Assembly: GCF_026240635.1 (NCBI RefSeq)
Contig: NZ_CP110848.1
Location: forward strand, 1,242,501 to 1,306,500
DNA: 64,000 bases
Direction of reading: 5' to 3'
Source: Trichothermofontia sichuanensis B231
GTDB taxonomy: Bacteria; Cyanobacteriota; Cyanobacteriia; B231
The translations under genes were made by a program, and so were the position numbers. Below, piece after piece: positions 53 through 15,837 of this stretch (the first letter of the stretch is position 1; each line of letters opens with the position of its first letter). Below the pieces are notes generated by a model that did no database searches, was not told where the DNA came from, and worked only from the letters and a program-made list of their open reading frames with translations.

Positions 53-826
53 TTACTCACTCGCCTCGATATCCAACAAGACCTGCACCCACTCCGGTGG
101 GGCGGGGATCGAACTGCCCAAGCGCTCCAGCAACAACCAGGCGGCCAAGTGAACGACAAATAGGTAAATCACGCTATTGATCACCACCACCGCCACCGCA
201 ATCACCTGGATCAGCCAAAGGTCCGGTTGGGTTAATATCCCCAGCTTAGTAAAGATCCACTCCGCCAGGTTAGCAATTTGTACCATTGAGTAGGCCCACA
301 GGTCATCCCCCAGCAGCAGCGACACCAGCCAGATGCGAAAGAAAAAGCCCACGGTATTGAGCAGCGTACCCAGGGCGATTGCCACCCACCAGTTCACCGC
401 ATTCCGCCACAGCCACCCCAACAAAACCCCCAGCAACCCAAAAGGCACGATAAACAGAATACTGCGCGTCGGTCCCATCAACACCGACAAGAGTAACCCC
501 GATACCAGGGTAGCCATCCACGTCGCCCGATGCCCCCAGCGCAGGTAAACCAGCGTGATCGGCAGGGGAAAAAAGATCCGTAACAGCGGACCGATCGGAA
601 AATAATAGTTAACCAGCCAAATCAAGCTGGCCGTACTGGCCAAAAATGCCGTTTCCACCAGACTCAGGGGGGCGGGTGCTCTCAGGTGAGGCTCAGCTAA
701 GGAGGAGGGCACAGGTCCTGTGGCGGCTTCCGCAGGCGAGGGAGCCGCGTTGGGGATTTCCTCATCAGACACGCGATCGCTGGACGACGCCAAGGGCAGA
801 TCACGGCTGTTAGGCGACGAAGACAT
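53..826 (-). CDS. DUF2232 family integral membrane protein
   Basis: The 257-residue product has a hydrophilic Ser/Pro/Ala-rich N-terminus of about 50 residues. After it come several hydrophobic helices from about residue 55 to 240, with Trp- and Leu-rich segments typical of polytopic inner-membrane proteins. The pattern fits the DUF2232 family that is common in cyanobacteria; its function is not known. The gene starts 27 bp downstream of the stop of the Crp-type regulator on the same strand, so the two are probably one transcript. The start ATG gives a product of normal length. I see no frameshift or missing part. Confidence 0.75.
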   Translation of the reverse strand: MSSSPNSRDLPLASSSDRVSDEEIPNAAPSPAEAATGPVPSSLAEPHLRAPAPLSLVETAFLASTASLIWLVNYYFPIGPLLRIFFPLPITLVYLRWGHRATWMATLVSGLLLSVLMGPTRSILFIVPFGLLGVLLGWLWRNAVNWWVAIALGTLLNTVGFFFRIWLVSLLLGDDLWAYSMVQIANLAEWIFTKLGILTQPDLWLIQVIAVAVVVINSVIYLFVVHLAAWLLLERLGSSIPAPPEWVQVLLDIEASE

Positions 827-853: not shown

Positions 854-1561
854 TTAGGAGAGCAACAGGCGATCGAGGGCATCGGTATCGGGAATACATA
901 GGACATCCCGTTCGCGTTGAATTAGCCCTTTTTTTTCTAGCTTACTCAAGACCCGCGTTACCGTTTCCCGCGCCAGCCCACTTAAACTACTCAGCTCCCG
1001 GTGGGGTAAGTTGGGAATCATGACCCCCTTCTCACTGGTTTGCCCCTGGCCATCCGCCAGAAATAGCAGAATATCCGCTACCCGCGAGGTACTGTCCGAC
1101 TCGCGTAATCGCAGCCGACGATTGACCTGCCGTAGCCGACGAGCCATAAGTTGAGCCAGACGAATTGCAGCTTGGGGTTCAGTTTGCAGCATTTGCACGA
1201 AATCCTGGGCAGGAACATTAGCAATCACTGTGGGGGCCAAGGTAATCACGTCCGTCGATCGCGGCACCGAATCCAGGGGAGCCATCTCGCCAAAAATTTC
1301 CCCCTTACCCAAAATATTCAGGGTGACTTCCTTGCCTTCCAGGTTATAGGTCCGAATTTTGACCCACCCATCCAGGATGAAATAGACCGAACTGCCCCAG
1401 TCATTTTCTAATAACAAAATCTGATTGGCGGGATGGCTACGCACAACCACATGAGCCGTGGCCTTCTCGACAATCTCAGCAGGGAGTCCCTGGAAAAAGG
1501 TCGAATGACGGAGCTGTTCTTCATTGGCGCGATGACTGCGAGAGACGTGCCGATCTTCCAT
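854..1561 (-). CDS. Crp/Fnr family transcriptional regulator
   Basis: The 235-residue protein has a cyclic-nucleotide-binding-type beta-roll (about residues 18-140, with the GEIFGEMAPLDSVPRS phosphate-binding-cassette-like segment). A long dimerisation helix and a C-terminal winged helix follow (about 175-225; the recognition helix reads SGLARETVTRVLSKLEKKG). The RS in the cassette matches effector-binding family members, so cAMP or a related ligand is possible but not proven. Its DNA targets cannot be read from the sequence. It is the first gene of a probable two-gene unit with the DUF2232 protein. It is divergent from the long coiled-coil gene across a 1-kb spacer. Confidence 0.88.
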   Translation of the reverse strand: MEDRHVSRSHRANEEQLRHSTFFQGLPAEIVEKATAHVVVRSHPANQILLLENDWGSSVYFILDGWVKIRTYNLEGKEVTLNILGKGEIFGEMAPLDSVPRSTDVITLAPTVIANVPAQDFVQMLQTEPQAAIRLAQLMARRLRQVNRRLRLRESDSTSRVADILLFLADGQGQTSEKGVMIPNLPHRELSSLSGLARETVTRVLSKLEKKGLIQRERDVLCIPDTDALDRLLLS

Positions 1562-2628
1562 CTGGCGTTACAAGCATTCAGGATCAGGATGAGGTCTTAA
1601 ACAAGCAATGTGATGGCTTTGCGACGCTGAAGGCATATTACTGATAAGCCCTACACCCCACTCGACACCAGCGCCGAATTGAGGTGCTCAGTTGGCGAAC
1701 ACCAGTCTAACCCGAAATCAGACCAAAACACGTTGGGCTAGCGGAGACCTTACCCACTGGGGATTGACAACCCGGGGCTATTCCCGTTTGCCTCCCAGCG
1801 CCAAAATCCGCCCGCCAAAACCCGCATCCATTGTTTGTGAGTAAGGTGACTCTAGACTGTTCTTAGCATACACCTTAAACTACAAGCACTGATTGATAAA
1901 GAGCCTGATTGAGTCCCTGATGACCCAGTGCTTAACCGTAGGAAAGGTCTATTGATCGCTGTGCCCACAGACCCTTTTCCCATAGACACCCGTTATTACT
2001 AACCCGGTGTCACCGGCGATAGGCACTGGCGGTGATCATGCCAAGATAGAATTGCCTCAAAATCCGGTTGCATTCGGGCAGTGGCCGTGCTCTAAAATTG
2101 CCCTGATGGGTTGCTACCCAATCGGAATGAAGGGATACGGATGCTGCACTCAGCCCCGTCTGCCTTACTCCCTGGGTTAGCGATCCCTCGGATTAAGCCT
2201 AATTAGGCTTCAGACCGAGTTAGCCAAGTCTGCTTGGGGGACGGTCCGATCGCCGATTAAGCTTAAGGGACCTACCTGGGGACAGGGGGCCAATGCTCTG
2301 CCAAGCTTGATAGTCGGATGGGTTAGGTTAATTTCAACCTGTAGGTGCATCCACCCCTGTTTAATCTAGGCATTGTTCCGTCATCAAGGTTACACTCATT
2401 GTCAAAATCACCGGCTGCAATAGGTCAATGGCACCGTCCCGCGCTCACCCAGAGTTGCCCGTCTCACCTGGACTCTTCCGGATTCAGAGACACAGGTCAG
2501 CTTAGGTTGTGCCGGTTCGCCCCTAGGTATCCAGCATGGCCCTCTTGCCTAGGACTCAACTGGAGGGTTCCCTTGACCGTTGCATACCCACTGGCTGCAT
2601 TCCCGTTGGAGATTTCAGAGGTTCTACC
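1562..2628. other. Long divergent intergenic region
   Basis: This is about 1.07 kb between the Crp-type gene and the long coiled-coil gene. I found no convincing coding frame in it on either strand. It is mixed in composition and contains a strong palindrome near 2187-2219. It must hold the divergent promoters and could hide a small RNA, but I recognise no known RNA family. Confidence 0.5.
2187..2219. repeat. Extended palindrome
   Basis: The core AAGCCTAATTAGGCTT at 2195-2210 is a perfect 16-bp palindrome. It is flanked by CTCGG (2187-2191) and CCGAG (2215-2219), which extend the symmetry after small internal bulges. No T-run follows, so it does not look like an intrinsic terminator. It could be an operator or an RNA hairpin in the leader of the downstream gene. 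Confidence 0.6.
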
Positions 2629-5565
2629 GTGACTCCTCAGCAGGCCCAAGCCCAGGCACTGATCCATGAAATTGACAGTGTCCTTCACAAAGCTAGCCCT
2701 CGTTTACCCTGGGTCATGTCCAACGAAGACGCCCAGCAGCGTCAGCTATTGCACCAACTGCGGTCTTATCTGGTAACCTCCCTCCAAGCGTCGTCACCGT
2801 CACTGCCAGAAGGCTCCTCCGCTGGTGTTTCCGGTGGTGAATCCCTCCCCGATCGGTCGCCAGCGGTCAGTATGAGCCAACTGGACGCGATGCAACAAAC
2901 CCTGCACGCCATGATGCAGGAGATGAACCACCTGCGGCGTACGGTCTTGCAACCGCTACAGGCGGATGTGGCAGAGTTACAGCAACAACGGGAGGCCCTG
3001 CGTCAGGAGGTACAACAACTGGAAAGTCAACGGCAAGCCGCGATCGCCGCGGCAGCCCCAACTGCTTCTGATACCCTTAGCCAGCAAGTCCTCCAGGAGG
3101 TATTGCACCTCCTGATGCAACGTCTTCAGGAAAGTTTAAGTCAACAGATCAGCCAGCAGATTCACCAAGCATTCCAACGGCTGCAAGCGACCCTACAACC
3201 TGCCCATGACCTATCCCCTGCCAATGCCACGACCGGTCTATTACCGGGAATGACGGCGGAACAGGTGAAAAACCTGGAAGCCCTCCAGGCACGCGCGGAT
3301 CAGGTGTTAACGACGATCGATGCCACGCTGCGGGTTGTATTTGAGTCGATGCAGCGTAATCTCGAAAGTTACCAGGATTCCCTCACCCGTGGTCTAGAAC
3401 GAATGCATGGGCTAGGACAACAGAGTGAGGCGCAATTTGCTGCCCTTCTTAACCACTTGGCCCAACGGCTAGGGCAAGAAGCCTCTGCCTATCTGAATGC
3501 ATCTCTACAAACCCAAGGGTTGATTGCACCGGAAGCCCCTGTTGCACGGGAAACTGTGCGCCCCGGCAGTGCTGCTCCCGCCGCTTTACCCACGGACGCG
3601 ATCGCCGAAGAGGCCTTGCCGTTTGCAGGTTCAGAGATCGGGAGAGGGGGAGCCGAGGTTTCCGTGTTCTCCCCCTCATCCCCTTCCCCTAGCCGGACCA
3701 GTCCATCGGCCCATCGCTCTGAAACGCTGCAACTGGACGATCTGGATCTGTCCGACTTTAATTTGGATGCTCTGGATACCAGTTTGATCGATGCCGAAGG
3801 GGCTGATCTGGAGGCACTCCCGTTAGCAGAAGGCGGCCCAGAAGCCGGGACTTTAGACCTAGGGAGCGACGATCGGGACATCGACGATTCGCCTACAGAG
3901 ATGCTGCGTGAACGCGGGGCCGAGCCGACGAATACACTGCCAACGGCTGTCATGGCCGAAGCGGAGACACTGGACTTCCTCAACCAATTGGCAGAGACCT
4001 TGGATGCTCCCGCCCTTGTCCAAGCGGCTGAATCCCAATCCTCCCCAGCGACCCCCACAAGCTGGACGGATAGCAGTACCACTGCTGAATTACGGGAACT
4101 GTACCAAAGTCTGTTTGGCTCCGATGAATTTGCCGGTGCTGCCCCCGCCACTCCCCCAGCAGCCACTCCCGATAGCCCGCCAACAAGTGTCCCCACGCTG
4201 GACAATCTCTTCGGGGAATTGGATGCCACGATTCATCCCGATAGCGCCTATCTCGATTCTCCGGGGGAAACGCTACGCGAACAGTTAGATACCGAGCCGT
4301 CTGGGTCTGATACGCTGCTGTTTGAGGGTGAGACCTCCGCCTCGCCGGGTCTAGAACCGGCGGCTGACCTCAGTGCTGATTGGACTGATCTGTCCCTGGG
4401 GATAGAGGATGTTGCCCCGTTGGGGACGCTGCCCGAACCCACAGCATCTTCCCAGGAGACGCGTCCCAGTTCTCTAGAAGACTTTTTCTTCCCGGAAGCG
4501 GCTCCTGCGGGTTCTTCGCTGCTTTCTGCCGACGCTGCCCCATCTGTGGAGGCGGAACTGTCCCTAGCCGGAAGCCCTGACGTTGAGGCTGAGTCGATCC
4601 CCCGCGGGGAACGCGACGCAAACGCATGGCTGGAGGAGGCTGCTTTGGAGCAGTTAAGTGAGCCAGCAACGGTAGAGCCAGCCCCCCGTACGGCTGCTCC
4701 TGATCTCCCTGATTTAGATACCGATCCCTTTAATTTAAGTGCTTTGGCCGCAGATTTTGCGGCTGAGCAAGAGACCGCCGCTACCGGGCCTGATCTGGCG
4801 GCTCTGCTGGCTGACATCGGTGCTACGGGAGCTATGCCTGGGGATGTCGCCGCGATCGAGACGGGCAGTGTCAGTGCCAGCTTAGAAGATAACTTTGATA
4901 CGGCTGCCCCTGATGAAGATCTCCTAGCGCCAGAAGACCTCCAATCTCCTCCTGGTCCAGAGCTGCTCCAGATCGATGACCAGACGTTACAACAATTGAG
5001 TGAAGATCTCTTTAGCCTGGAGTCCAGTGAGTTAGCCACGCCTGGGGAACTACCCTCCTTCCCGCCATTGGAAGGCGATCATAGCGTGTCTCCAACGGAA
5101 ACTCGACCCTCACTTGGAGACGACTTTGGTCAACCAGCTGCCGCCTTGGACCTAGCGCCCCAGACCACGGCGTTCAGTGTTGAGGACTTTGCTGCTGATC
5201 TGTTGGGTGGCCTTGGGGGGGATGACCGGGCGATCGCCGCCGCCCATCCCTCCCTTTCAGCCCCAGAGACCCGGGCGAGTGAGCAAGATCTCGACCCCTC
5301 CCTAGCGGCACTGGAGGATCTCTTTACCGATTCCCTCTCCCCTGATCTTCCCCCTGAACCACCCCCTCCTGAGCCAGTGGCCTCTCCCACGCCCAAGGGT
5401 TTTGTCGATGAAGACGCTGCACGAACGGATGGTGGCTTGTTAGATGATTTGTTTGCTGATTTTGGTGAGCTAGAGGTGGCCAGCCAGACAGCGGAGAACA
5501 ACCTAGCCAGTTTCCAGGCAGAATTTCCCGTGTGGGATGAAGACTCAGCAAAAAAAAAGTTCTGA
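2629..5565 (+). CDS. Coiled-coil/acidic protein, N-terminal half of a frameshift fusion
   Basis: I chose GTG 2629 (start VTPQQAQAQ) because an AGAGG lies 7 nt upstream and the sequence turns protein-like there. Residues about 82-290 are Gln/Leu-rich coiled coil. The rest (about 300-975) is low-complexity and very acidic, rich in Asp, Glu, Ser, Pro and Ala, with recurring short LDDLF/LEDLF-like motifs. The coiled coil is clearly homologous to the N-terminus of the EamA transporter at 13987-15837: IDATL..VFESMQRNLESYQ against LDATL..TFQSLEQDLSSYQ. The frame stops at TGA 5563-5565, directly after an A9 run. The -1 frame stays open into the next gene, so this is probably the short product of a frameshifting gene. 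Function unknown; a scaffold role is a guess. Confidence 0.75.
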   Translation: MTPQQAQAQALIHEIDSVLHKASPRLPWVMSNEDAQQRQLLHQLRSYLVTSLQASSPSLPEGSSAGVSGGESLPDRSPAVSMSQLDAMQQTLHAMMQEMNHLRRTVLQPLQADVAELQQQREALRQEVQQLESQRQAAIAAAAPTASDTLSQQVLQEVLHLLMQRLQESLSQQISQQIHQAFQRLQATLQPAHDLSPANATTGLLPGMTAEQVKNLEALQARADQVLTTIDATLRVVFESMQRNLESYQDSLTRGLERMHGLGQQSEAQFAALLNHLAQRLGQEASAYLNASLQTQGLIAPEAPVARETVRPGSAAPAALPTDAIAEEALPFAGSEIGRGGAEVSVFSPSSPSPSRTSPSAHRSETLQLDDLDLSDFNLDALDTSLIDAEGADLEALPLAEGGPEAGTLDLGSDDRDIDDSPTEMLRERGAEPTNTLPTAVMAEAETLDFLNQLAETLDAPALVQAAESQSSPATPTSWTDSSTTAELRELYQSLFGSDEFAGAAPATPPAATPDSPPTSVPTLDNLFGELDATIHPDSAYLDSPGETLREQLDTEPSGSDTLLFEGETSASPGLEPAADLSADWTDLSLGIEDVAPLGTLPEPTASSQETRPSSLEDFFFPEAAPAGSSLLSADAAPSVEAELSLAGSPDVEAESIPRGERDANAWLEEAALEQLSEPATVEPAPRTAAPDLPDLDTDPFNLSALAADFAAEQETAATGPDLAALLADIGATGAMPGDVAAIETGSVSASLEDNFDTAAPDEDLLAPEDLQSPPGPELLQIDDQTLQQLSEDLFSLESSELATPGELPSFPPLEGDHSVSPTETRPSLGDDFGQPAAALDLAPQTTAFSVEDFAADLLGGLGGDDRAIAAAHPSLSAPETRASEQDLDPSLAALEDLFTDSLSPDLPPEPPPPEPVASPTPKGFVDEDAARTDGGLLDDLFADFGELEVASQTAENNLASFQAEFPVWDEDSAKKKF
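5550..5565 (+). other. dnaX-type -1 slippery site with adjacent stop
   Basis: In the zero frame the sequence reads GCA AAA AAA AAG TTC TGA. It contains the heptamer A AAA AAG (5553-5559) in the phase required for tandem -1 slippage. The stop lies one codon further on. After a -1 shift the frame reads GTT CTG ACC and is open through to 7775. Transcriptional slippage on A9, or one base lost from a true A10 during sequencing, would give the same fusion. Confidence 0.65.
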
Positions 5566-5639
5566 CCCCAACGGCTGAGTTTCTGCGGGAAGCCAACCCA
5601 GCCTCTGTCCCAGAGATAGCGCCTGAGATAGCGCCTGAG

Positions 5640-7775
5640 ATGACGTCAGCAGTCATCCCTGAAACCATCCCTGCTTCTGCCGGTGACCCTGCGGCTGCTT
5701 ACCCTTCGCCAACGCTGCCAGTGACCCCGACCGCTTCCCCCGCCGGTGAAGAACTCTTCAGCCTGTCCGCGTTCGGGCAGCCTTCCCAACAGGGAATTGC
5801 TCCAACCGATTGGTACTTGGGGCTGGATATTGGCACAACCGCCCTCTCCGCTGTGCTCTGTCATCGTCCCACCGGGGCCGTCTATCCCCTCTATTGGTGG
5901 GTGGCGGCTACCGATCCCCCTAGCGCCAATCCGCCTTGGGGCATTCGTGAGTCGTCGTCTGCGGAAAATCGGGTTGGGTCGCCCCAGCCGCCTCGCTTAA
6001 GCTGGCCCCCCATCCCGTGCTTCCGGTTACCCAATCTGGCCTACCTCAGCGCCGAACAACTGACACAGCCCCCCCAGATGCCCACTGCCATTGGCTTACT
6101 GGCCCAAGCAGCTTATCCCGCGCCAGACTACCCCGATCAGCCTTTGTCTGAGTTGCTCCATACCCTAGAACCCCATTGGTCCCCTGGAGGAGGGGGCTTT
6201 TTCCTGCATGACTACCTCCCACTTCTGGATCTCACTTGGCCCTACTATTCCCCCCAATCCCTACGCTGGGAACCCCAACTGCAATGGTCAGAAACTCAAG
6301 TTTTGCCTTTAGGGTGGTGTCAACAGACGCTACAGGCCCTTATTCATAGCTTGTTAGACCCCCCTGGGACGGAAGTGCTGTCGATAGGAAGGTTACGGTG
6401 TGCGGCGGTGGGGTTAGACAGTCAAACCTTCCAAATGGCCCTGCGTCACCTGACGGGCGTTTGTGTGAGTGGTTGTATTGACCACTCGGATGTCTATGCC
6501 TACAACGTGCGGGAAGCGGTTTTAGCAACGGGGTTAGTGGCACAGCCGGAGCAAATTGTGCTGGTTGAAGGCCCGATCGCGGCCCTGTTGACGGAATTAC
6601 AAGGCTTACAACAAACGCGACGGTATGCGGACGATGGCACAACCCCCCTTTCCCAAGCGGGAGCTTGGACTTGGGACGGCTTTACCCTGGTCATTGAAGC
6701 GGGGGCGAGTCATACGGATTTACTCTTGAGTGACCTACCTGACCCTCTCTCAACCCTGACTTATCAAGATTTCTGGCTACGGGGGTTGGACTACGGCGGT
6801 CATGCCCTCGATCAGGATATTTTCTGCCAGTTGCTGTTACCCCAACTGTCGGTACGCCCCCCCGAATGGCAGGGGTTAACGATACCTGTGGTGGGTGAAC
6901 CCGATCGGGAGCGGCGTGCCCGGTTACAACAGCAGCTTGCCCATACCCCTCTGGGCTGGGTTTGGTTGCAATTTGCGCAGCAGATTAAGGGCCAGTTGGT
7001 CCAGGCAACTAGGCCACAGGCGGTTGGGCCGCGTGCCCAAGGCGAGATTGGACCCCAAACCTTTACCCTAGGGGAAACGGTCATCCACCTCAGTCCCCAG
7101 GACCTGGAAATCCAGATCTTTCTGCCCTATTTGCGACGTCTGAATCGCGAGTTAAATACCCTCCTCAGCCAAGCAGGGGTCGTTCCTGCTCAAATCCGGC
7201 AGGTTATCTGTACCGGGGGAACAGGGGCGATCGGGGCCATGACCCGATGGCTGCGGCAAAAGCTACCGAATGCGACGATTCTTCAGGATACCCAGCCCAA
7301 CCTCGCTCAACCCAGTTGTAGTCGCGTGGCCTATGGCCTAGCCCTAGTCTCACTCTACCCCCAGGTCATTGCTACCGATCGCCGCATCTATAGTGATAGC
7401 TTCCTACTGCTGGAATTGCTGCGCACGGTGCCGACTGAACCCATGTCCTTAACCCAAATCCTGGTGGCCTTGGCCCGTCGAGGGATTAATGTCAAGGTGT
7501 GTCGATCGCGCATCCAGCAGTTGCTCGCGGGCCACCTACCCCAGGGGCTGGGGTTCGACGATCGCCACCGCGTCTGGCTGAGTGCCAGTTCCCAGCAACA
7601 CCCGTTTTACACCACGATCGCGACGGCTCCCCTCTTTCAAGCCGTTGGTCCTGACACCTACGTTTTGAACGGGGAGCAGGCCCAGGCTTGGCACGGTTAC
7701 CTCACCCAAGTCCTTGCAGGTAAGCATCAGCGACTGGACGAACCGCTAGTCGTTAGTGGACTGCCTTCGCCGTGA
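5640..7775 (+). CDS. Actin/Hsp70-like ATPase-fold protein, C-terminal half of frameshift fusion
   Basis: The product carries hallmarks of the actin/Hsp70/sugar-kinase fold. Near the N-terminus is a phosphate-1 motif (YLGLDIGTTALSAVL). Mid-protein is a phosphate-2-like segment (VIEAGASHTDLLL), followed by GLDYGGHALDQDI. Late comes an adenosine-type motif (ICTGGTGAIGAM). A further 120 residues look like a small helical domain. ATG 5640 has no obvious ribosome site, and the frame is open upstream to the A9 run. I therefore infer it is translated mainly as a fusion with the upstream coiled-coil protein (about 1715 residues in all). The 3' end overlaps the convergent glycosyltransferase gene by 49 bp. 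The family is not one I can name. Confidence 0.75.
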   Translation: MTSAVIPETIPASAGDPAAAYPSPTLPVTPTASPAGEELFSLSAFGQPSQQGIAPTDWYLGLDIGTTALSAVLCHRPTGAVYPLYWWVAATDPPSANPPWGIRESSSAENRVGSPQPPRLSWPPIPCFRLPNLAYLSAEQLTQPPQMPTAIGLLAQAAYPAPDYPDQPLSELLHTLEPHWSPGGGGFFLHDYLPLLDLTWPYYSPQSLRWEPQLQWSETQVLPLGWCQQTLQALIHSLLDPPGTEVLSIGRLRCAAVGLDSQTFQMALRHLTGVCVSGCIDHSDVYAYNVREAVLATGLVAQPEQIVLVEGPIAALLTELQGLQQTRRYADDGTTPLSQAGAWTWDGFTLVIEAGASHTDLLLSDLPDPLSTLTYQDFWLRGLDYGGHALDQDIFCQLLLPQLSVRPPEWQGLTIPVVGEPDRERRARLQQQLAHTPLGWVWLQFAQQIKGQLVQATRPQAVGPRAQGEIGPQTFTLGETVIHLSPQDLEIQIFLPYLRRLNRELNTLLSQAGVVPAQIRQVICTGGTGAIGAMTRWLRQKLPNATILQDTQPNLAQPSCSRVAYGLALVSLYPQVIATDRRIYSDSFLLLELLRTVPTEPMSLTQILVALARRGINVKVCRSRIQQLLAGHLPQGLGFDDRHRVWLSASSQQHPFYTTIATAPLFQAVGPDTYVLNGEQAQAWHGYLTQVLAGKHQRLDEPLVVSGLPSP

Positions 7776-9163
7776 TGGATGGTCTTAACCCACTTCAGTC
7801 GTTTCGGTCGCACCGAAATGCGCATGGCCATCGTGGCGATCACCAGCATCCAATGCATCAGGTAGACATTGGCCTGTAACGTTTGCCAGCCTTGAACCCA
7901 GAGGGGTCGGTGTTGCGTGCGGCGTAGCCCCATCATCATACTGAGCATCGAAAAGCCGATCGCGAGGGCTACCAAGGGACTCAGCAGCGGCGGACAGTTC
8001 CGCAGGTAGGCCATCAAAAGGTCGGGCACGGCTGCCGTTGGCAGCAGGTACTGCATAACCCAGAACATCGCCAAATCGTAGGTTTTGCGCGGGCCAAGTC
8101 GATTCTGAATGAGCGGTTTCCAATAGTCGAGGTAACGCTGGTAACCCCCCTCGGCCCAGCGATTGCGTTGATGCCATAGCCCGATCGCCGTGGTCACCCC
8201 TTCTTCCAGGACCGCCACATCATTCAGGAACTCAATATCCCAACCTTGTATATGGAGGTGTAGGGTCAAATCGAGATCATCCGTAATCGTCGCTTCATTA
8301 AAACCACCGCAGGACTCCAATGCCTCCCGGCGAATGAATTGGCCATTACCCCGCAGTTCCCCAATCCCCCCAATCGCAATTCGCTGTTGTTGCACGCAGC
8401 TATCCAGGGCCATTTCCGCTGCTTGACACCGAGTCCAGAAGTTATGCTGGGCATTGGCGATCGCCTTACGGACCTGTACAGCCCCGATCCGCTCCTGGGT
8501 AAACAAAGGCAACACCCGTCGCAGGAGATCCGCCGGGACCTGGGCATCCGCATCAAACACGGCTAAAATCTCACCCGCTGCTTGGGGCCATACCTGATTG
8601 AGGGCACCCGACTTGCCACCGCCCGCACCCGGTCCCCGGCGAACAATGCGCAAATGGCTATACTGTTGGGCCAACTGTTTCAAGATAACGGGGGTTTGAT
8701 CATCGCTATTATCATCAATAATCCACAGCTCATAGCGATCACGAGGATAGTCCAGTTGGCAGAGAGATTCCACCAGTCGGGCAATCACAGCCTCCTCATT
8801 CTTGGCCGCCACGAGCAACGAGACGTAGGGACAATTCTCAGACCCATCAATGTCCAGGGGCAAAGGGGCCACATGGGGCCGCAGCCGCAACACGCGCAAG
8901 GCATGAACCCCCATTAGGGTCGTTAGTCCCAACACCAACCACAGCCCCCACGAGACGGAATGGAGGGCGATCGTACTGCCCCAAACCACTGTCAAGAGCA
9001 CGGCGGCTTTCTGGCGACGTCGATCCGAGCGTGGGCCAGCCGTTGCCCTTGGCTCCGGCATAGGCGTAACGCCGCTTGTGGCTATCGACTCCCCCAACTT
9101 GTCAGCTACCGTTGGGTCAATCACACTGTAGGAATGACTTTCGGACCAGGATGGCTCCGGCAT
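7727..9163 (-). CDS. mgdA: Beta-monoglucosyldiacylglycerol synthase, GT2 membrane glycosyltransferase
   Basis: The 478-residue protein has the domain order of cyanobacterial MgdA (Sll1377 type). A first hydrophobic segment is at about 53-93. The GT-A domain carries DDNSDD (150-155), DAD (204-206), TDDLD (294-298) and QRNRW (332-336). C-terminal membrane helices follow. The family transfers glucose from UDP-glucose to diacylglycerol, making the precursor that is epimerised to the thylakoid lipid MGDG. The N-terminal segment KAAVLLTVVWGSTIALH closely matches what I recall for MgdA. Its 3' end overlaps the convergent ATPase-fold gene. Confidence 0.85.
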   Translation of the reverse strand: MPEPSWSESHSYSVIDPTVADKLGESIATSGVTPMPEPRATAGPRSDRRRQKAAVLLTVVWGSTIALHSVSWGLWLVLGLTTLMGVHALRVLRLRPHVAPLPLDIDGSENCPYVSLLVAAKNEEAVIARLVESLCQLDYPRDRYELWIIDDNSDDQTPVILKQLAQQYSHLRIVRRGPGAGGGKSGALNQVWPQAAGEILAVFDADAQVPADLLRRVLPLFTQERIGAVQVRKAIANAQHNFWTRCQAAEMALDSCVQQQRIAIGGIGELRGNGQFIRREALESCGGFNEATITDDLDLTLHLHIQGWDIEFLNDVAVLEEGVTTAIGLWHQRNRWAEGGYQRYLDYWKPLIQNRLGPRKTYDLAMFWVMQYLLPTAAVPDLLMAYLRNCPPLLSPLVALAIGFSMLSMMMGLRRTQHRPLWVQGWQTLQANVYLMHWMLVIATMAMRISVRPKRLKWVKTIHHGEGSPLTTSGSSSR

Positions 9164-9773
9164 AGGCTACTTGCTTTAACCCCCAATAAGCATCAATTTC
9201 CTTGCCATCACAACCGTTGCGCCCAGAAGCGATCACCAATGCTGGCCAAGAGGCGCGATCGCTCCAGAAACGACAACGGCAGGGTTTGCCTGTCTTGAGG
9301 ACAGCTTCCCCACGGCAAGGGCTGTTTTATTTTAGCCAACCTTGGTCGGCTTCTTGGCATTTACCGCGATCGTCGCCTAGGCCGAAGGCCCACGCGGGGC
9401 CAATATTATAAACATTTATTAAAATTCATGAAAGATTTTATGAAAAATCTGCAAAGCAAGATTGCCCCCCTGTTCTTTCTCATAGCCGCGGTGGGTATCT
9501 TATAAGTGAGGATTGATGCTGTTCGTTGTCGAAAACGATCATAACGATCATAACGATCAAGGGACAGATCAACTGATCTACTTTTAGACAAGGGGGTCCC
9601 CTAAGGGGGGCCGCGGTTTGCCCAATTGTTGGGGGGCAACGGAAGTGATGGATTGAGGTCACTGGTTTTCTTGCTGATCACGGGCTGATCGCGCAACTTT
9701 AACGGGATGCGCCATTGGCAGTGCTCCGAATCGTTATGCTTAGTGTTAGATCCACGGTGGAGAAGAGGTACTG
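9164..9773. other. Intergenic region with 9-bp tandem repeats
   Basis: No gene is supported between mgdA and the EbsA-like gene, which are divergent. Three tandem 9-mers, AACGATCAT twice and AACGATCAA once, lie at 9534-9560. A GC-rich palindromic patch (GGGGTCCCC...GGGGGGCC) lies near 9593-9613. Around 9410-9480 the sequence is AT-rich and suits a promoter. Confidence 0.5.
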
Positions 9774-10148
9774 ATGCCCATTAATCAACCCAAGGCCGCA
9801 GCACCCGAAAAGGTCATGATCTACCAACCCTACTATCAGGGAAGTCGGCGCAATGCCCTTCCCTATGCCATCAGCCTTTACCAAGAAGGGTCACTAGAAG
9901 GCGAGCGGCGCATTGAGGGAGGAGAGAGTATCCCCTTTATTGCTTCCTGGGAAGTGACCTCCCTACCGCTACAGATGACCCGTTGTCGGGTGCAATTTGA
10001 TGGTAAGGCTGATCTCAGTTACCAAACGTCGATGAAGAGCCATGAACTGATTGATTTTCTGATTGATGCCTTTGTCCATTATCGCCGTAACCAGGTGGCT
10101 GACTTTCCCCCGGCCTTTTATCGCAAGCTACTGAATATGGAGGCTTAG
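9774..10148 (+). CDS. EbsA-like conserved cyanobacterial protein
   Basis: The 124-residue soluble protein has no signal peptide or membrane segment. It has a beta-rich middle (IPFIASWEVTSLPLQMTRCRVQF) and a C-terminal helix with YRRNQVADFPPAFYRKLL. The N-terminal segment (YQPYYQGSRRNALPYAISLYQEGSLEGERRIEGGESIPF) resembles the cyanobacterial EbsA family as I remember it. EbsA of Synechococcus elongatus works with PilB and Hfq in type IV pilus assembly and biofilm self-suppression. No pilus gene lies nearby. The family call is from memory and moderate; the gene itself is convincing. Confidence 0.6.
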   Translation: MPINQPKAAAPEKVMIYQPYYQGSRRNALPYAISLYQEGSLEGERRIEGGESIPFIASWEVTSLPLQMTRCRVQFDGKADLSYQTSMKSHELIDFLIDAFVHYRRNQVADFPPAFYRKLLNMEA

Positions 10149-10784
10149 GCGATCGATGGCGATCGCTAATATCGGTGGGTGTTCTTAAATCCAAGGCTCT
10201 CATCCTCTAACCCCTTCTCTCGGTTTGTGAGAAGGAGGAGAGATTCGGCTTGGCCTCCGTTTGCGGAGGGGCAGGGGATGGGAAATGCTGCTGTGGGGGT
10301 GCGGCACCAATAGTGCTTAGTGCTCGTTTCGGTTAATGAGCGCGGCTTACTAAGGGGCGATTTAGGGGTGATTGAGTGGCAATTGAGTGGCGATTGAGTT
10401 ATTGTGGCGGTTTAGAGGTTCAACGTGCCTTGACGACCTATCGGGGATACGATCGGCGCGAGCTTATAGTCATTGCCATTTAGGCCGAAACAGCCCCCTC
10501 ACCCCCAACGCTTCTCCCACAGGGGGAGAGGGGCTTAGACATCTCTTTCTAATCTGAAATCACTATAGTTCTGGTCTGGCTAGGAGCCTTGGCACTTGTC
10601 ATGGGGATACCGCTTCACTATCCCTACTGAGAAGTACTTGGCCCTAGGGTGCAAGGGTTGGCGCAACATGCCACCGGTGGCTACCCGCGTGCTTGTTTCT
10701 GTTGTCACGTCCCCCTCTCCCCTAGAATGGGGAAGATCAAGCGGGCAATTTTTACCCAGTTAGGATTTGGTAAGGAGTGGGGGT
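10149..10784. other. Intergenic region with repeats
   Basis: No gene is supported. A degenerate GC-rich repeat is at about 10200-10280. An 11-bp imperfect tandem (ATTGAGTGGC-type, three copies) lies near 10369-10400. A MITE-like element is at 10465-10567. The last 200 bp hold the promoter region of the next gene. Confidence 0.5.
10465..10567 (+). mobile_element. MITE-like element, family A, copy 1
   Basis: The element runs from TATAGTCATTGCC to ATCACTATA, so its ends form an imperfect terminal inverted repeat (TATAGTCATT against TATAGTGATT). The middle is the GC-rich CCCCCTCACCCCC...GGGGGAGAGGGG hairpin shared by all copies. It encodes nothing. This 103-bp version shares its right end with the copy at 13884-13986. 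Confidence 0.75.
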
Positions 10785-11861
10785 GTGCCGAGCGTAACAC
10801 CGTATTTACTTGTGGGGTCAACGGAAACGTATAGTGGCAAGTCTGCGACTATTTTAGGACTGGCCCATCAACTGACGGCCCGGGGGATGGATATTGCCTA
10901 TGGCAAGCCCTTGGGCACCTGTCTGAGTCCCACCGATGCCGGGGTGGACGAGGATATGGCGTTCGTGGTTGAGTCCCTGGCACTGGCGGCCAATCGGCTC
11001 TACCCGCCGGTCGCTTTTCAGGATACCCCCACCCTAACTCAGCAAATGCAGGCCAGCGTTGCCCTTCCCTATGGGCAGCAGCTCAGAGCACACTTTACGC
11101 CTCAAGGGGAGGATTTGATCTTGCTGGAGGGACCGTCTGGGATTTCAACGGAAGGGCGACTGCTGGGGCTGTCCCTGGGCCAGATAGCAGCCTGTTTGGA
11201 TGCCAATGTCCTTTTGGTCACGCGCTGTGGTTCGCTGCGGGTTGTGGACGCTTTGCTCTATGCCCGTGATATTCTGGGCGATCGCCTGGTTGGGGTGGTT
11301 TTGAACGATATTGCCCCAGACTTCATGACCCAAGTCCAGCAGGTCCTCGCCCCTTTTCTTGACGCTCAGGGGGTTACGGTATTGGGGGCCTTACCCAGTC
11401 ATCCCCTCCTGCGCAGTGTGAGTGTAGCAGAACTGGTTCGACAGTTGCAGGCAGAGGTCCTGTGTCGTCCCGATCGCCTCGGTCTAATGGTTGAGATGCT
11501 GAAAATTGGGGCAATGAATGTCAATTCGGCCCTGGAATATTTTCGCAAGGGGCACAATATGGCGGTAGTTACGGGCAGTGATCGCGCTGATATTCAACTG
11601 GCGGCCCTGGAGACTGCTACCCAATGTCTGATTTTGACCGGGCACCTGCCGCCCCCGGCAGAAGTGCTGGCACGGGCTGAAGAGTTAGAAATTCCGATTC
11701 TCTCGGTGCAGTTGGATACGCTGACGACGGTGGAAATTATCAACCGCACCTTCCGGCAAACCCGCCTGAATGAGCCGGCGAAGGTGCAGTGCATTCGCGA
11801 GATGATGGAGCGGTATTTTGATTGCGAGCGGCTGCTGGCCAAAATTAAGGCCCGTCCTTAG
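10785..11861 (+). CDS. Phosphotransacetylase-like/DRTGG domain protein with BioD-like P-loop domain
   Basis: I chose GTG 10785 because TAAGGAG ends 7 nt upstream, an excellent ribosome site. The N-terminal domain is a BioD/CobB-type P-loop fold (VGSTETYSGKSATILG near residues 8-23, then LLEGPSG). The C-terminal half contains the DRTGG domain (GAMNVNSALEYFRKGHNMAVVTGSDRADIQLAALE). This matches the cyanobacterial family annotated as phosphotransacetylase-like or cobyrinic-acid a,c-diamide synthase-like. The substrate is unknown. The 3' end overlaps the convergent DUF2062 gene by 17 bp. Confidence 0.8.
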   Translation: MPSVTPYLLVGSTETYSGKSATILGLAHQLTARGMDIAYGKPLGTCLSPTDAGVDEDMAFVVESLALAANRLYPPVAFQDTPTLTQQMQASVALPYGQQLRAHFTPQGEDLILLEGPSGISTEGRLLGLSLGQIAACLDANVLLVTRCGSLRVVDALLYARDILGDRLVGVVLNDIAPDFMTQVQQVLAPFLDAQGVTVLGALPSHPLLRSVSVAELVRQLQAEVLCRPDRLGLMVEMLKIGAMNVNSALEYFRKGHNMAVVTGSDRADIQLAALETATQCLILTGHLPPPAEVLARAEELEIPILSVQLDTLTTVEIINRTFRQTRLNEPAKVQCIREMMERYFDCERLLAKIKARP

Positions 11862-12429
11862 CGCTGAAGGGATAATGGCCCTGGAAAGCCGGTTGCGGTT
11901 GGCCAGCAGTGGTATGACGAGAACGGTAGGAACGGTGGCGGCCTGAGCGCAGATGTTGCAGGAGCCAGAGTCCCAGGTAATAACTCAGCACACTACTGAC
12001 GGCTCCGACGATAGCACTGCCCAACAGCAGTGCCGTAGCAACCTCGGCACCTAGGTCCCACCAGCCCTGCCAGGTTCTGAGGTCCGTGAGTGTGATCGGT
12101 GAGGCAGCAGACGCTAAAACCCAGCGTCCAACCTGGTAGTTGAAGGCAAAGATCGGTACATAGGTGAGGGGATTACTCACCCAGGTGCCGGCGATCGTTA
12201 GCAAGCGATTGCCGCGAATCAGAGTGGCGATCACGAGGCCGATCGCAATCTGGAAACCAAAGAAGGGGAAACACCCGGCAAAGACCCCTGCGGCTAAGCC
12301 CCGTGCCATTTCTCGTGGGGTTCCCCGCAGGCGCAATAACCGGCAGTAAACATACCGACAGGTGCGTCGCCAGGAGGCAGGCCGCTGGGGGAACGGGAGA
12401 GTCAGGGGAACAGGGAGTCGTTTAACCAT
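11845..12429 (-). CDS. DUF2062 domain membrane protein
   Basis: The 194-residue protein has the DUF2062 signature. It starts with PREMARGLAAGVFAGCFPFFGFQ, then a helix, then GNRLLTIAGTWVSNPLTYVPIF, followed by further hydrophobic helices and a basic C-terminal tail. It should sit in the inner membrane. Its function is unknown. It is convergent with the DRTGG gene, overlapping its last codons. Confidence 0.85.
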   Translation of the reverse strand: MVKRLPVPLTLPFPQRPASWRRTCRYVYCRLLRLRGTPREMARGLAAGVFAGCFPFFGFQIAIGLVIATLIRGNRLLTIAGTWVSNPLTYVPIFAFNYQVGRWVLASAASPITLTDLRTWQGWWDLGAEVATALLLGSAIVGAVSSVLSYYLGLWLLQHLRSGRHRSYRSRHTTAGQPQPAFQGHYPFSAKDGP

Positions 12430-12746
12430 ACCAAGGGGGATTGCACCAGCGTTAGTCCGAAAATACCACAGGCAGCTAGCTCTCTTCTGGAACGGGCTTT
12501 GACACCGGGCACACCGGGGGGCACGTTGAAGCTCTATCTTATCTAAGGCTAATCTAATATCCAGGTTAATCTATCAAGATGAGCCGCGATCACGACCTCT
12601 GATGAAGACGAGCCATTGCTTGGCCCTGTCCTCTGCATTGATCCTAGTTGCCCCCTTAGGCTCGCAACTGGCTGTGCCAGGATCGGTGCGGTGTGAAGCC
12701 GGGGCACTCAGCCAATTTTACCCTCTGTATGCTGATCAGGTGAGTT
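12430..12746. other. Intergenic region, divergent promoters
   Basis: This is about 320 bp between divergent genes. A frame starting at 12602 mimics a signal peptide but runs out of phase into the ParA-like gene and has no support. I see no repeat or RNA element here. Confidence 0.4.
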
Positions 12747-13883
12747 GTGTCCCACATTATTTGTGTTCATTCCTTTCGCCACGGGACGGGCAAGTCCAGT
12801 CTGACAGCAAACTTGGCGGTTTGTTTAGCCCGTCAAGGGCAGCGGGTGGGGATTATCGATACGGATTTTCAAGCCCCTGGTATCCATACCCTGTTTGATG
12901 TCGATCCCGATCACCTCGATCCAGCCCTCAATTATTATCTGTGGGGTGATGTCAATCCTGATGAAGCCGTCCACCCCACGGATCTCTGGCTGACGGTTGG
13001 TGATGGTCAGATTATCTTGATGGGGGGAGGAATTTATTTAGTACCCACCAGCCTCAAGTTGTCGGAAATGACCCGTCTCCTGCATCAGGGATATGATGTG
13101 GTCCGGCTGCAACAGGGCATTCTGGATTTGATGAACCGGCTGCGCCTGGATTTGCTCCTCATTGACTCTCATCCAGCCTGGGATGAGGGCGCTTTAGCCA
13201 CGATGGGGATGGTTGATATTGCTATCGTACTCATGTGCCTCGATCGTCAGGATTTCCAAGGTACTGCTGTTACCCTGGATATTACTGCGAATCTGGAAGT
13301 CCCCCATACTCTCCTGGTTGTTAACCAGGTGCTCTCCAGTTACGACCCGCAGATGGTTCGGGAGCAAATTATGGCGACTTACAACATCGCCGATGTTACG
13401 CTGTTACCCCTATCGCTCAAGATGGCCTTAATGGGGGGGCAAGGCATTTTCTGCCTCAAATACCCCCAGGATGAGCTAGCCCAAACGATCGCGGGCATTG
13501 CCCAAACGGTACTAACCCTGATCCAGGGACAGCCGCCTAAATTTAAGTACGCGCCGCTTCCCAGCACCGCCACTGGAACCAGGCCCCCCGTGAAATCAGG
13601 TTTACGCATGGTGGATCTGCTGGAGATGCCCCCTAAGCAACGCCGGTTAGTGCGTTGGTTGATGCGCCGCCCCCAAGCTAGCTTTACCGAGATTGCGACC
13701 TATGCAGCCCAAACCTGGCAGCAAAGTGAAGCCGAAGTCCAGACCCTGCTGGATACCTTGCGACAACAGCAATACCTCACCACCCGCGGGGAGGGAACTC
13801 GGCAGATTTACCAAGTGAACTTAGCCCCCAAACCCGGCCAGTCGGCAATTATAAACACTTGGTCGAAACTCGAAGCAGAATAA
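12747..13883 (+). CDS. ParA/MinD-like ATPase
   Basis: The 378-residue protein has a P-loop near the N-terminus (HSFRHGTGKSSLTANLA), switch regions (IIDTDFQAPG; LLIDSHPAWDE) and a C-terminal extension of about 90 residues that may form a winged helix (VRWLMRRPQASFTEIATYAAQTW). The deviant Walker A of ParA/MinD proteins begins with a signature lysine. Here that place holds arginine (R-H-G-T-G-K-S). I recall the same change in a cyanobacterial subgroup. Such ATPases position cargo on membranes or nucleoid, but this one's cargo is unknown. Start GTG 12747 has weak ribosome signals. The stop codon abuts a MITE-like element. Confidence 0.82.
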   Translation: MSHIICVHSFRHGTGKSSLTANLAVCLARQGQRVGIIDTDFQAPGIHTLFDVDPDHLDPALNYYLWGDVNPDEAVHPTDLWLTVGDGQIILMGGGIYLVPTSLKLSEMTRLLHQGYDVVRLQQGILDLMNRLRLDLLLIDSHPAWDEGALATMGMVDIAIVLMCLDRQDFQGTAVTLDITANLEVPHTLLVVNQVLSSYDPQMVREQIMATYNIADVTLLPLSLKMALMGGQGIFCLKYPQDELAQTIAGIAQTVLTLIQGQPPKFKYAPLPSTATGTRPPVKSGLRMVDLLEMPPKQRRLVRWLMRRPQASFTEIATYAAQTWQQSEAEVQTLLDTLRQQQYLTTRGEGTRQIYQVNLAPKPGQSAIINTWSKLEAE

Positions 13884-13986
13884 TATAGTCATTTCAATTG
13901 AGACTGAAACAGCCCCCTCACTCCCAACCCCTCTCCCACAGGGGGAGAGGAGCTTAGACATCTCTTTCTAATCTGAAATCACTATA
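13884..13986 (+). mobile_element. MITE-like element, family A, copy 2
   Basis: The 103-bp element starts with TATAGTCATTTCAATTGAG and ends with TGAAATCACTATA. The outer 13 bases of the two ends match with one mismatch. It fills the whole gap between two convergent genes: the preceding stop is TAA 13881-13883, and the EamA gene's stop is at 13987-13989. Its GC-rich hairpin could act as a terminator for both genes. Confidence 0.8.
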
Positions 13987-15837
13987 CTAGCGTGGAGGTT
14001 TGGTCTGTGTTTGGCTCTGGCTCTTGAGACGCTCAAAGCTGAGGGCAACCACGCCAAGCGTCACTAGGATGACCCCCAGAAATTGCAAACGTTGTAAGGT
14101 TTCCCCAATTAAGATCAGTGCCAAGAGGGCCGTAAAGGCAGGCCCGGTTGCACCGACGATCGCCGATCGCGCTGCCCCGGCCATCCGGATACCAAAATTG
14201 TTAGAGAGATACCCAGCTAACGTCGTCAGCGCCAGCAACAAGACCCCGATCGCTAAATGCGGCCACTGGTTGCTATTGACCCGAACCGCCCAGGTATTGG
14301 GCAGGGGAACCAGCGCCAGAATCAACCCACTACAGAAGAAAATGGTGGCGAATTGGACCAGGGTTACTGCCACCGCATTCAGCCTGCGGGTACTGCTCTG
14401 GGTATAGATGACAAAAAAGGCAAAGGCAACCCCCGACCCGATCGCGGCTGCTAGTCCGATTCCTGACAAGCTATTGGCACCAGTTCTTCCCCCTGATAAA
14501 GCAATCATGCCCACCCCCAGCAAGACGATAGCCGTAATTCCTAACCGGAATAACGTCGGGCGATCGCCAAAGAAAGCCCAGGACAGGAAAAGGGTCACAA
14601 TTGGGTAGATAAAAAAGATGGTAATCGCAATTCCCGTCGGAATTTGCCCTAGGGCGATATAAATGAACAATTGTGACAGGAACAAACAAAAGCCACTGCC
14701 GAACACATTTCGTTGTAAGGTGCGATCGCGCGCCGTTAAAAATTGCCGCAGATCTCGCCAAACGTGGGGATAGAACCCCCGTGCTAGCAGGGCCAGTACC
14801 GGCAGCACCAGCACCACCCGCAGGAAGAGAATTAACAGCGAATTCCCAAAGCTGGGTGAAATCACTCCCCCCCACTGGAACCATCCCAACACCAATTGCG
14901 GTTTGAGAATCACCCGTAGGACCACATTCTGTAAGGACAGGAAAAACGACGAGAGCAGAATCAACACCAGTCCCACCTGGACCGGAGAGAGACGTTGGGG
15001 CGCGGGAACCGCCGGGGGCGGCGCCGCCCGTTCTGACCTTTCCGGCACAGTTGCTGGCGGCTCGGTGGCCGCCGGGGATAACGGCGGATCAGGCCGGGGT
15101 GGATAACTACGAGACGAGAAGGGGGGCGGGGGGGGTGCTGTCCAATCGATCGGGGCACGATTCTCCAGCGGCGAGGTGGCGTGAACACGGGGGAGCGCCG
15201 CTAATCGCTGGTCCTCTAGGGGGGCAAACCGGGAACTGGTGGGGAGCTTGGCTACCTCTTCCTCCAGTACTGCCTTGAGACGGTTGACCAAGGCTGTGAG
15301 AATGGCTTCCCCCTGTTGCTCTAGGTTGTGCATCCGGCTCAGTTGCTGCGATAGCGCACTCTGGTAGCTACTAAGGTCCTGCTCTAGGGATTGAAACGTG
15401 GTGTTGAGGGTGGCATCGAGAGACGCAATCATTTGATAGGCTCGCTCGCTATACCCATTACTGTGGGCGGGAGTGGCTGACGCTTGGGCGGTAGCTGTGG
15501 TTTGGGCAGCCAACTGGTGGAGTTCTTCGCTCAGACGATGCTGGAGGTGAGCCGCGATCACCTGGGCCAGTTTTTTGGCCCACTGTTGCTGTCGGAGTAA
15601 TTCCTGGCGGCTAAACGCTTGCTGGTGCTCGGCCCGGAGGGTCTCAATTTCACGGACGAGGCGTTCCTTCTCCTGTTGCAGCCATTGAATATCCTGGGCC
15701 AATTGGGCTACCAGGCTTTCCTGCAATTTTTGCAGTTCTTGTGTCATGGCATTTAAGGCGGTATCTGCTGCCCGTGCCGCCGCCGGACCCGACAGACCAC
15801 CGCTCCCACTTCCCAATCGCTGATTGGATTGCGCCAT
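13987..15837 (-). CDS. EamA/DMT-family transporter with N-terminal coiled-coil domain
   Basis: Residues about 26-197 are coiled coil, and about 205-285 are Pro/Ala-rich linker. From about 290 there are ten hydrophobic helices in two repeats, as in the EamA (drug/metabolite transporter) family, for example YIALGQIPTGIAITIFFIYPI. The N-terminal domain is homologous to that of the long protein at 2629 (about 200 residues, best in LDATL...SYQ...LSRMH). DMT proteins export or import small metabolites; the substrate is not evident. Normal EamA proteins are about 300 residues, so half of this protein is extra cytosolic domain. Only a MITE-like element separates its stop from the ParA-like gene. Confidence 0.85.
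   Translation of the reverse strand: MAQSNQRLGSGSGGLSGPAAARAADTALNAMTQELQKLQESLVAQLAQDIQWLQQEKERLVREIETLRAEHQQAFSRQELLRQQQWAKKLAQVIAAHLQHRLSEELHQLAAQTTATAQASATPAHSNGYSERAYQMIASLDATLNTTFQSLEQDLSSYQSALSQQLSRMHNLEQQGEAILTALVNRLKAVLEEEVAKLPTSSRFAPLEDQRLAALPRVHATSPLENRAPIDWTAPPPPPFSSRSYPPRPDPPLSPAATEPPATVPERSERAAPPPAVPAPQRLSPVQVGLVLILLSSFFLSLQNVVLRVILKPQLVLGWFQWGGVISPSFGNSLLILFLRVVLVLPVLALLARGFYPHVWRDLRQFLTARDRTLQRNVFGSGFCLFLSQLFIYIALGQIPTGIAITIFFIYPIVTLFLSWAFFGDRPTLFRLGITAIVLLGVGMIALSGGRTGANSLSGIGLAAAIGSGVAFAFFVIYTQSSTRRLNAVAVTLVQFATIFFCSGLILALVPLPNTWAVRVNSNQWPHLAIGVLLLALTTLAGYLSNNFGIRMAGAARSAIVGATGPAFTALLALILIGETLQRLQFLGVILVTLGVVALSFERLKSQSQTQTKPPR

Follow-up and report, generated by a model that had tools for sequence, protein, structure and literature searches.

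Does a coiled-coil domain that stands on two proteins of one cyanobacterium mark them as partners, and what are these proteins? The DNA analysed here (the window, 64,000 nt, part of a single-contig 4.44 Mb genome) encodes a coil on an EamA-type transporter and a second coil next to an actin-like ATPase (Table 1). A preliminary description of the DNA read the latter pair as a fusion and suggested that the two coil-bearing proteins may co-assemble.

Table 1. Positions of the features discussed, numbered from the first letter of the window
Feature	Position	Strand	Basis or remark
DUF2232 membrane protein	53..826	-	conserved neighbour of coil-ATPase gene
Divergent Crp-family regulator	854..1561	-	conserved neighbour of coil-ATPase gene
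Coil + acidic linker ORF (P0001)	2629..5565	+	ORF-list start ATG 2536; conserved GTG 2629
SepJ-type coil domain, P0001 aa 112-324	2869..3507	+	homology to P0002 coil
Linker, long, acidic, Ser/Pro-rich, low-complexity	3508..5549	+	from sequence
A9 run, GCA AAA AAA AAG, candidate slippage site	5550..5558	+	coil-linker / ATPase frame junction
Coil ORF stop codon	5563-5565	+	4 nt past A9 run
ATPase open frame (P0003), 744 aa	5541..7775	+	frame -1 relative to coil ORF; own ATG 5640
Hsp70-type nucleotide-binding domain + C-terminal extension, P0003 aa 56-698	5805..7733	+	predicted model, Foldseek, VIA-align, profiles
SepJ/FraG-type protein (P0002), 616 aa: coil, disordered linker, EamA/DMT permease	13987..15837	-	
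DMT/EamA permease domain, P0002 aa 282-611	14005..14994	-	Pfam; SLC35/DMT folds
Coil of SepJ-type protein, P0002 aa 22-207, two long helices 19-116, 129-197	15217..15774	-	

The similarity of about 200 residues claimed in the preliminary description was borne out: residues 123-317 of P0001 aligned with residues 28-196 of P0002 at 30% identity over about 195 residues (BLASTP E = 7e-17), and the motif that it had pointed out, DATL..F.S...L.SYQ..L...L.RMH...Q.E, was found in both proteins, its key residues hardly varying across 56 sequences drawn from both kinds. The resemblance goes beyond composition, as the local alignment score was 237 against a maximum of 118 among 3,000 shuffles (1,000 each of full, local and heptad-register shuffles), and a 56-row profile separated both proteins from the rest of their own genome, in which P0001 and P0002 were the sole matches (E = 5e-58 and 6e-55, respectively; next 0.2). 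Furthermore, the start at 2629 that it had assigned fits the relatives, which share the same conserved GTG (V-T-S/P-...) and retain the N-terminus VTSQKDQIQxLIxEIDxVLxKxxPRLPWVMSG. The same profile yielded no third coil protein with an E-value better than 5e-5 in 24 genomes, that of the window included. A candidate third protein of about 500-550 aa, possibly SepI, which weak matches in the heterocystous family f32 had brought up, was rejected after two loci (L294 and L296) were read; the match there was to an oxidoreductase-like protein, unrelated judging by its sequence, and to a fragment of it.

The transporter could be identified further. Its reading as an EamA protein was correct (Pfam PF00892, E = 1e-19; matches to SLC35/DMT-fold transporters), and its SepJ identity had been missed. 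In the predicted model of P0002 (mc19fe401a588), a two-part N-terminal coil of about 180 aa precedes disorder up to residue 284, with a Pro/Ser/Thr-rich unstructured linker at residues 198-284 (mostly pLDDT < 50), followed by a C-terminal permease of the DME/DMT type; the accessible part of a published description gives the layout of SepJ as coil 28-207, linker 208-411 and permease 412-751 (PMC6463045). P0002 aligns over its full length with proteins adjoining HetR in seven of seven sampled f32 genomes, as expected of orthologues, the SepJ-type and HetR matches lying 0.4-1.6 kb apart and HetR being confirmed by Pfam in one locus (L144). Because this architecture, the hetR neighbourhood of the orthologues and the published numbering (sepJ, alr2338; hetR, alr2339; PMC8472315, as far as that source could be consulted) all agree, we class P0002, on sequence and predicted structure, as a SepJ/FraG-type septal protein; by analogy, septal location and a role in filament integrity are putative. 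How SepJ acts, and on which side of the membrane its coil lies, is disputed in print, the part of Flores 2025 available to us placing the coil in the periplasm.

The second protein is ordered as coil, long acidic linker and an ATPase of the actin superfamily whose predicted nucleotide-binding fold is of the Hsp70 type. The linker matched no Pfam family above the cut-off. The predicted model of the nucleotide-binding domain (NBD; m4d3a094662e4, pLDDT 83.4, pTM 0.86), in which a C-terminal extension follows the domain, matched Hsp70 in Foldseek (E = 1e-10) and DnaK in VIA-align (Z = 22.5, 371 aligned, rmsd 3.9; Z = 21.8, 354 aligned, rmsd 3.1); all matches listed by VIA-align were of the Hsp70 type, a list that says nothing against actin, MreB or FtsA. 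Sequence profiles matched Sse1/DnaK (5e-4) and PilM chains (0.004), with a weak Pfam match to PilM_2 (E = 0.41), while neither Pfam nor NCBIfam gave an Hsp70 family match at E = 1 or placed P0003 in any family. Of the three motifs that we take to be phosphate-1, phosphate-2 and connect-1, in name and in role, the phosphate-1 Asp was present in 47 of 47 ungapped rows of the alignment and the connect-1 Glu/Asp in 47 of 49; the catalytic Asp at the phosphate-2 position was present in nine of 49 rows, with Glu in one. Since the first two are kept and the phosphate-2 Asp is mostly lost, nucleotide binding by the domain is likely and fast hydrolysis doubtful, as is the label 'ATPase' for the protein, judging from these residues. 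The coil-ATPase protein was not described in what our literature search found; the anonymous filament-specific genes of Table 4 in Stucken 2010 may include it, as far as the accessible part of that source goes (PMC2821919). A second, more remote relative of this ATPase profile (about 30-43 bits; ORFs of about 530 aa) is conserved across most sampled cyanobacteria, its copy in the genome of the window lying outside the window (G000:C1:230305-230622), and in one further locus (L298, 3459-8029) an internal partial coil copy breaks up the ATPase part of the coil-ATPase gene.

Coil-ATPase loci recurrently have the Crp-type regulator and the DUF2232 protein upstream and, in some cases, a sugar transferase and a CDP-alcohol phosphatidyltransferase downstream. 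A DRTGG/AAA_26 domain protein (10767-11861, +) sits between the coil-ATPase and SepJ-type genes of the window, and a ParA/MinD-like ATPase gene (12747-13883, +) is convergent with the latter; this ParA-like gene was rejected as a conserved neighbour, since the relatives' loci do not conserve it. A MinD-like gene (Pfam CbiA/ParA in L121) adjoins the SepJ-type gene in six loci of one family (L054, L111, L112, L116, L120 and L121), to which such minCD-like neighbours are limited and which share two more conserved genes, minC-like and kinase-like. The SepJ-type gene often has a gene for a PHO4/PiT-type phosphate permease as its neighbour (L046, L048, L056 and 17 other loci).

The co-occurrence on which the proposed partnership depends was then compared across 145 genomes of the class, sorted by hand by presence and absence. 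The coil profile matched in 91 of them, a strong ATPase was found in 78 and a full coil-EamA protein in 73; both occurred in 68 genomes and neither in 62, and 15 held one alone (ATPase only, ten; coil-EamA only, five). Both were present in all seven named near-complete records, and the ATPase-type coil was found in 141 of 145 genomes of family f32. Among the ten ATPase-only genomes, three (G003, G008 and G107) have broken contigs or frameshifts, one (G069) has an EamA ORF on which no coil was found, and four belong to genus g36, which kept the coil-ATPase; in the two of these that were read (G045 and G070) the EamA orthologue is without the second half of the coil. Conversely, the complete genome G142 has the SepJ-type protein and no ATPase. 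HetR was found in 73 of the 145 genomes and in 65 of the 78 with the ATPase; the phylogenetic profile thus largely follows the filamentous habit, and co-occurrence can therefore be a matter of lifestyle.

This leads to the alternative that survives best, that one coil came, through an ancient duplication, to stand on two proteins of the septum or of division, which have separate jobs in a shared filamentous lifestyle, both binding a common third partner (the divisome, peptidoglycan) and not each other. We consider it a serious contender, if on the improbable side. That the profile tracks HetR and filamentous genomes and that either protein can be lost alone speak for it, as does the coil tree (110 rows), in which a single branch separates the two kinds (SH-aLRT 93); the coils, on that tree, are the product of one old divergence followed by joint inheritance. 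Against it stands the correlation of evolutionary distances between the two coils, which across 38 genomes was 0.80 and, given ATPase and permease, remained at 0.47, compared with a partial correlation of 0.17 between the attached ATPase and permease. The difference was seen with a composition control (0.34 versus -0.01) and a Crp control (0.51 versus 0.19), and composition, Crp and thinning controls together kept the coil-coil value at 0.34-0.51, although shared lineage effects may be reflected in it. Joint change also argues against separate jobs: four genomes of an f15 clade (G033, G047, G094 and G114) have lost the ATPase, keep a short coil protein and carry a SepJ coil from which at least the second half is missing. 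This counts as one event because the four form one clade (99*) on the permease tree. A fifth genome (G061) has no ATPase and gave no EamA match. In the loci of the f15 clade (L146, L148, L150, L152, L145, L147, L149, L151 and L153), HetR is kept where the ATPase has been lost together with part of the SepJ coil, and the short coil proteins (346-460 aa) stay in the same gene neighbourhood.

The coil-ATPase protein could also be a septal protein already known, SepI (Alr3364), which the accessible part of its report describes as having coil and linker-like domains arranged as in SepJ, without a permease, and as interacting with SepJ in BACTH (PMC12096826). A short form of the coil-ATPase protein would look alike, yet SepI has 521 aa, which argues against its being the coil half of the coil-ATPase protein, and the f32 open frame exceeds 1150 aa in 138 of the 141 genomes that gave a match; we regard the identity as unlikely. 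SepI offers instead, by analogy, a precedent for a SepJ-binding coil protein. This precedent and the coil-coil distance correlation support the idea that the two proteins of the window may co-assemble, and the genomes that hold one protein without the other weaken it.

How, then, is the coil joined to the ATPase? In the window the two are separate ORFs in different frames (2536-5565 and 5640-7775), so that the literal fusion of the preliminary description is wrong for this DNA, although it holds in many relatives. In 57 ATPase loci (the window and L045-L164) there were 28 single-ORF fusions, 27 pairs of adjacent ORFs and two loci with no coil in the stretch (L161 and L163), and among 80 named relatives, all cyanobacterial records, 57 were fused, 11 split and 12 undecided, mostly at contig ends. 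The window's ATPase frame is open upstream of its ATG, however, and overlaps the coil ORF at the A9 run. Such an overlap was found in 33 of 35 split loci, with a run of A7-A11 inside it in 31 (A9 or more in 30), the arrangement expected of a conserved slippage site. The exceptions are L084 and L160, which have no overlap and a long A run nearby, L162, which has no run, and L208, which has an ambiguous base. For these counts, four loci (L172, L182, L217 and L224), whose ORFs are as long as those of L085, L086, L083 and L090, respectively, were dropped as presumed duplicates, and L225 was dropped for its broken coil ORF; L053, L084 and L128 contain N and were omitted from some alignments.

The position and conservation of the run, more than its existence, carry the argument. 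The A9 run is the only one in the window, where shuffling gives an expectation of 0.77, so that one A9 in 64 kb is not rare; across 1.50 Mb (L045-L164 and the window), 34 of 39 A/T runs of at least nine fall at a coil/ATPase junction. In 22 of 31 genes no more than 12 nt separate the coil stop from the run, whereas random points drawn in these genes would give 18.7% (binomial P = 3e-10), and six split loci have no ATG, GTG or TTG between the run and the ATP motif. Fused genes keep a run of A8 or more in frame in the linker in 22 of 78 distinct cases, and in 11 of these the +1 frame runs into a stop no more than 8 nt away, a mirrored version of the split arrangement; the other 56 have no A8 run. 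Relative to the coil ORF, the ATPase frame is offset by -1 in 27 and by +1 in four of the 31 run-bearing split genes, runs followed by C or T also occur, and no consistent downstream stimulatory RNA fold was found in the 31 genes (mean fold z = -0.45), for which reason a functional RNA 3' of the run was rejected as a frameshift stimulator. Because of these three properties, we favour, from the sequences compared, transcriptional slippage over a ribosomal -1 shift, and joining of coil and ATPase in the window through slippage is probable. As the split frames overlap at the run, slippage of the dnaX type would yield a coil-linker and a coil-linker-ATPase protein.

Alternatively, the split genes could be ordinary two-gene operons in which the ATPase starts at its own codon (ATG 5640 in the window) and the A run is there by chance or as a relic. 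A start codon does follow the run in most split loci, the window included, and plain fusions without a run exist in many lineages; but the run inside the overlap common to 31 of 35 loci, the concentration of long runs at the junction, the non-random placement of the stop and the six loci without a usable start make this reading improbable. It is very unlikely that wrong homopolymer lengths, from sequencing or assembly, have split what is truly one ORF. Error-prone A9-A11 runs and a run length that toggles between fused and split genes would suit such a reading, but the split is seen in many unrelated genomes, single-contig ones included (G000, G024 and G134), and errors leave unexplained why a stop in the alternative frame, just past the run, is under selection in fused and split genes alike.

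Taken together, we propose that filamentous cyanobacteria carry one homologous coiled-coil hairpin on two proteins, SepJ, the septal permease that joins their cells, and a soluble coil-linker-NBD protein encoded at 2629-7775, and that the latter, which slippage would produce in two lengths, may serve SepJ as a cytoplasmic partner, a proposal to which we give an even chance. Transcripts with one extra A at 5550-5558 would carry the coil-linker frame into the ATPase frame and give the long form as a single protein; alternatively, ribosomes could slip by -1 on A AAA AAG to the same end, and unslipped reading would end at the stop just past the run and give the short form, the coil-linker alone. 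The coil of the soluble protein would pair with that of SepJ or share its binding site, and its Hsp70/PilM/FtsA-like domain would bind ATP and act at the septum as a scaffold or recruiter that depends on nucleotide, not as a strong ATPase. Counted against the proposal are the four of 31 split genes that need the other frame, the 56 fused genes without an A8 run and the periplasmic SepJ coil of Flores 2025, in the part accessible, which would be separated from a cytoplasmic partner. A bolder version, which we hold rather doubtful, is that SepJ and the coil-Hsp70-like protein form mixed septal coiled-coil bundles in which a nucleotide-gated cytoplasmic subunit, its long-to-short ratio set by poly-A slippage, would anchor or open the cell-cell joining machinery, with the SepJ coil at least partly cytoplasmic, against the periplasmic model.

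SepJ holds a central place in bacterial multicellularity, and its coil has a homologue on a soluble, Hsp70-like protein, near-universal in the sampled heterocystous family, which provides a concrete candidate for a SepJ partner and a direct test of the topology of the coil. It suggests that cell-cell joining in filamentous cyanobacteria may involve an unrecognised partner, a coil-Hsp70/actin-like protein; should the homologous coil act on the cytoplasmic side, the already contested periplasmic placement of the SepJ coil would need a second look. The conserved A run, if it is a true slippage site, would be a dnaX-like case in a gene linked to multicellularity.

Among known systems, P0002 resembles SepJ (FraG, Alr2338) of Anabaena PCC 7120, here compared by published description, in its two-helix coil of about 180 residues, disordered Pro/Ser-rich linker and DMT permease, and its orthologues adjoin hetR as sepJ does; it differs in its short linker (about 85 aa) and in a gene that is not beside hetR in the window. 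SepI is set apart from the coil-ATPase protein by length and by description, no ATPase domain being reported in the accessible part of its source. P0003 shares with the NBD of Hsp70/DnaK the predicted fold (Z about 22), the phosphate-1 Asp and the connect-1 Glu/Asp, and departs from it in the missing Hsp70 Pfam match and the mostly lost phosphate-2 Asp; furthermore, the coil-ATPase protein has an N-terminal coil and linker, apparently in place of the C-terminal substrate domain of Hsp70, although a C-terminal extension is modelled. The PilM/FtsA-type actin-like scaffolds, of which cyanobacteria are reported to lack FtsA (PMC7766704), are echoed in the weak PilM profile match and, by analogy, in a possible role as a nucleotide-binding scaffold of a membrane complex, although the protein is without a family assignment. 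Finally, the junction geometry, from which slippage is predicted here, is like that of Thermus thermophilus dnaX, where an A9 run has a stop close behind it, and of Shigella mxiE, where slippage joins two overlapping ORFs, both as given in the accessible part of PMC1088944.
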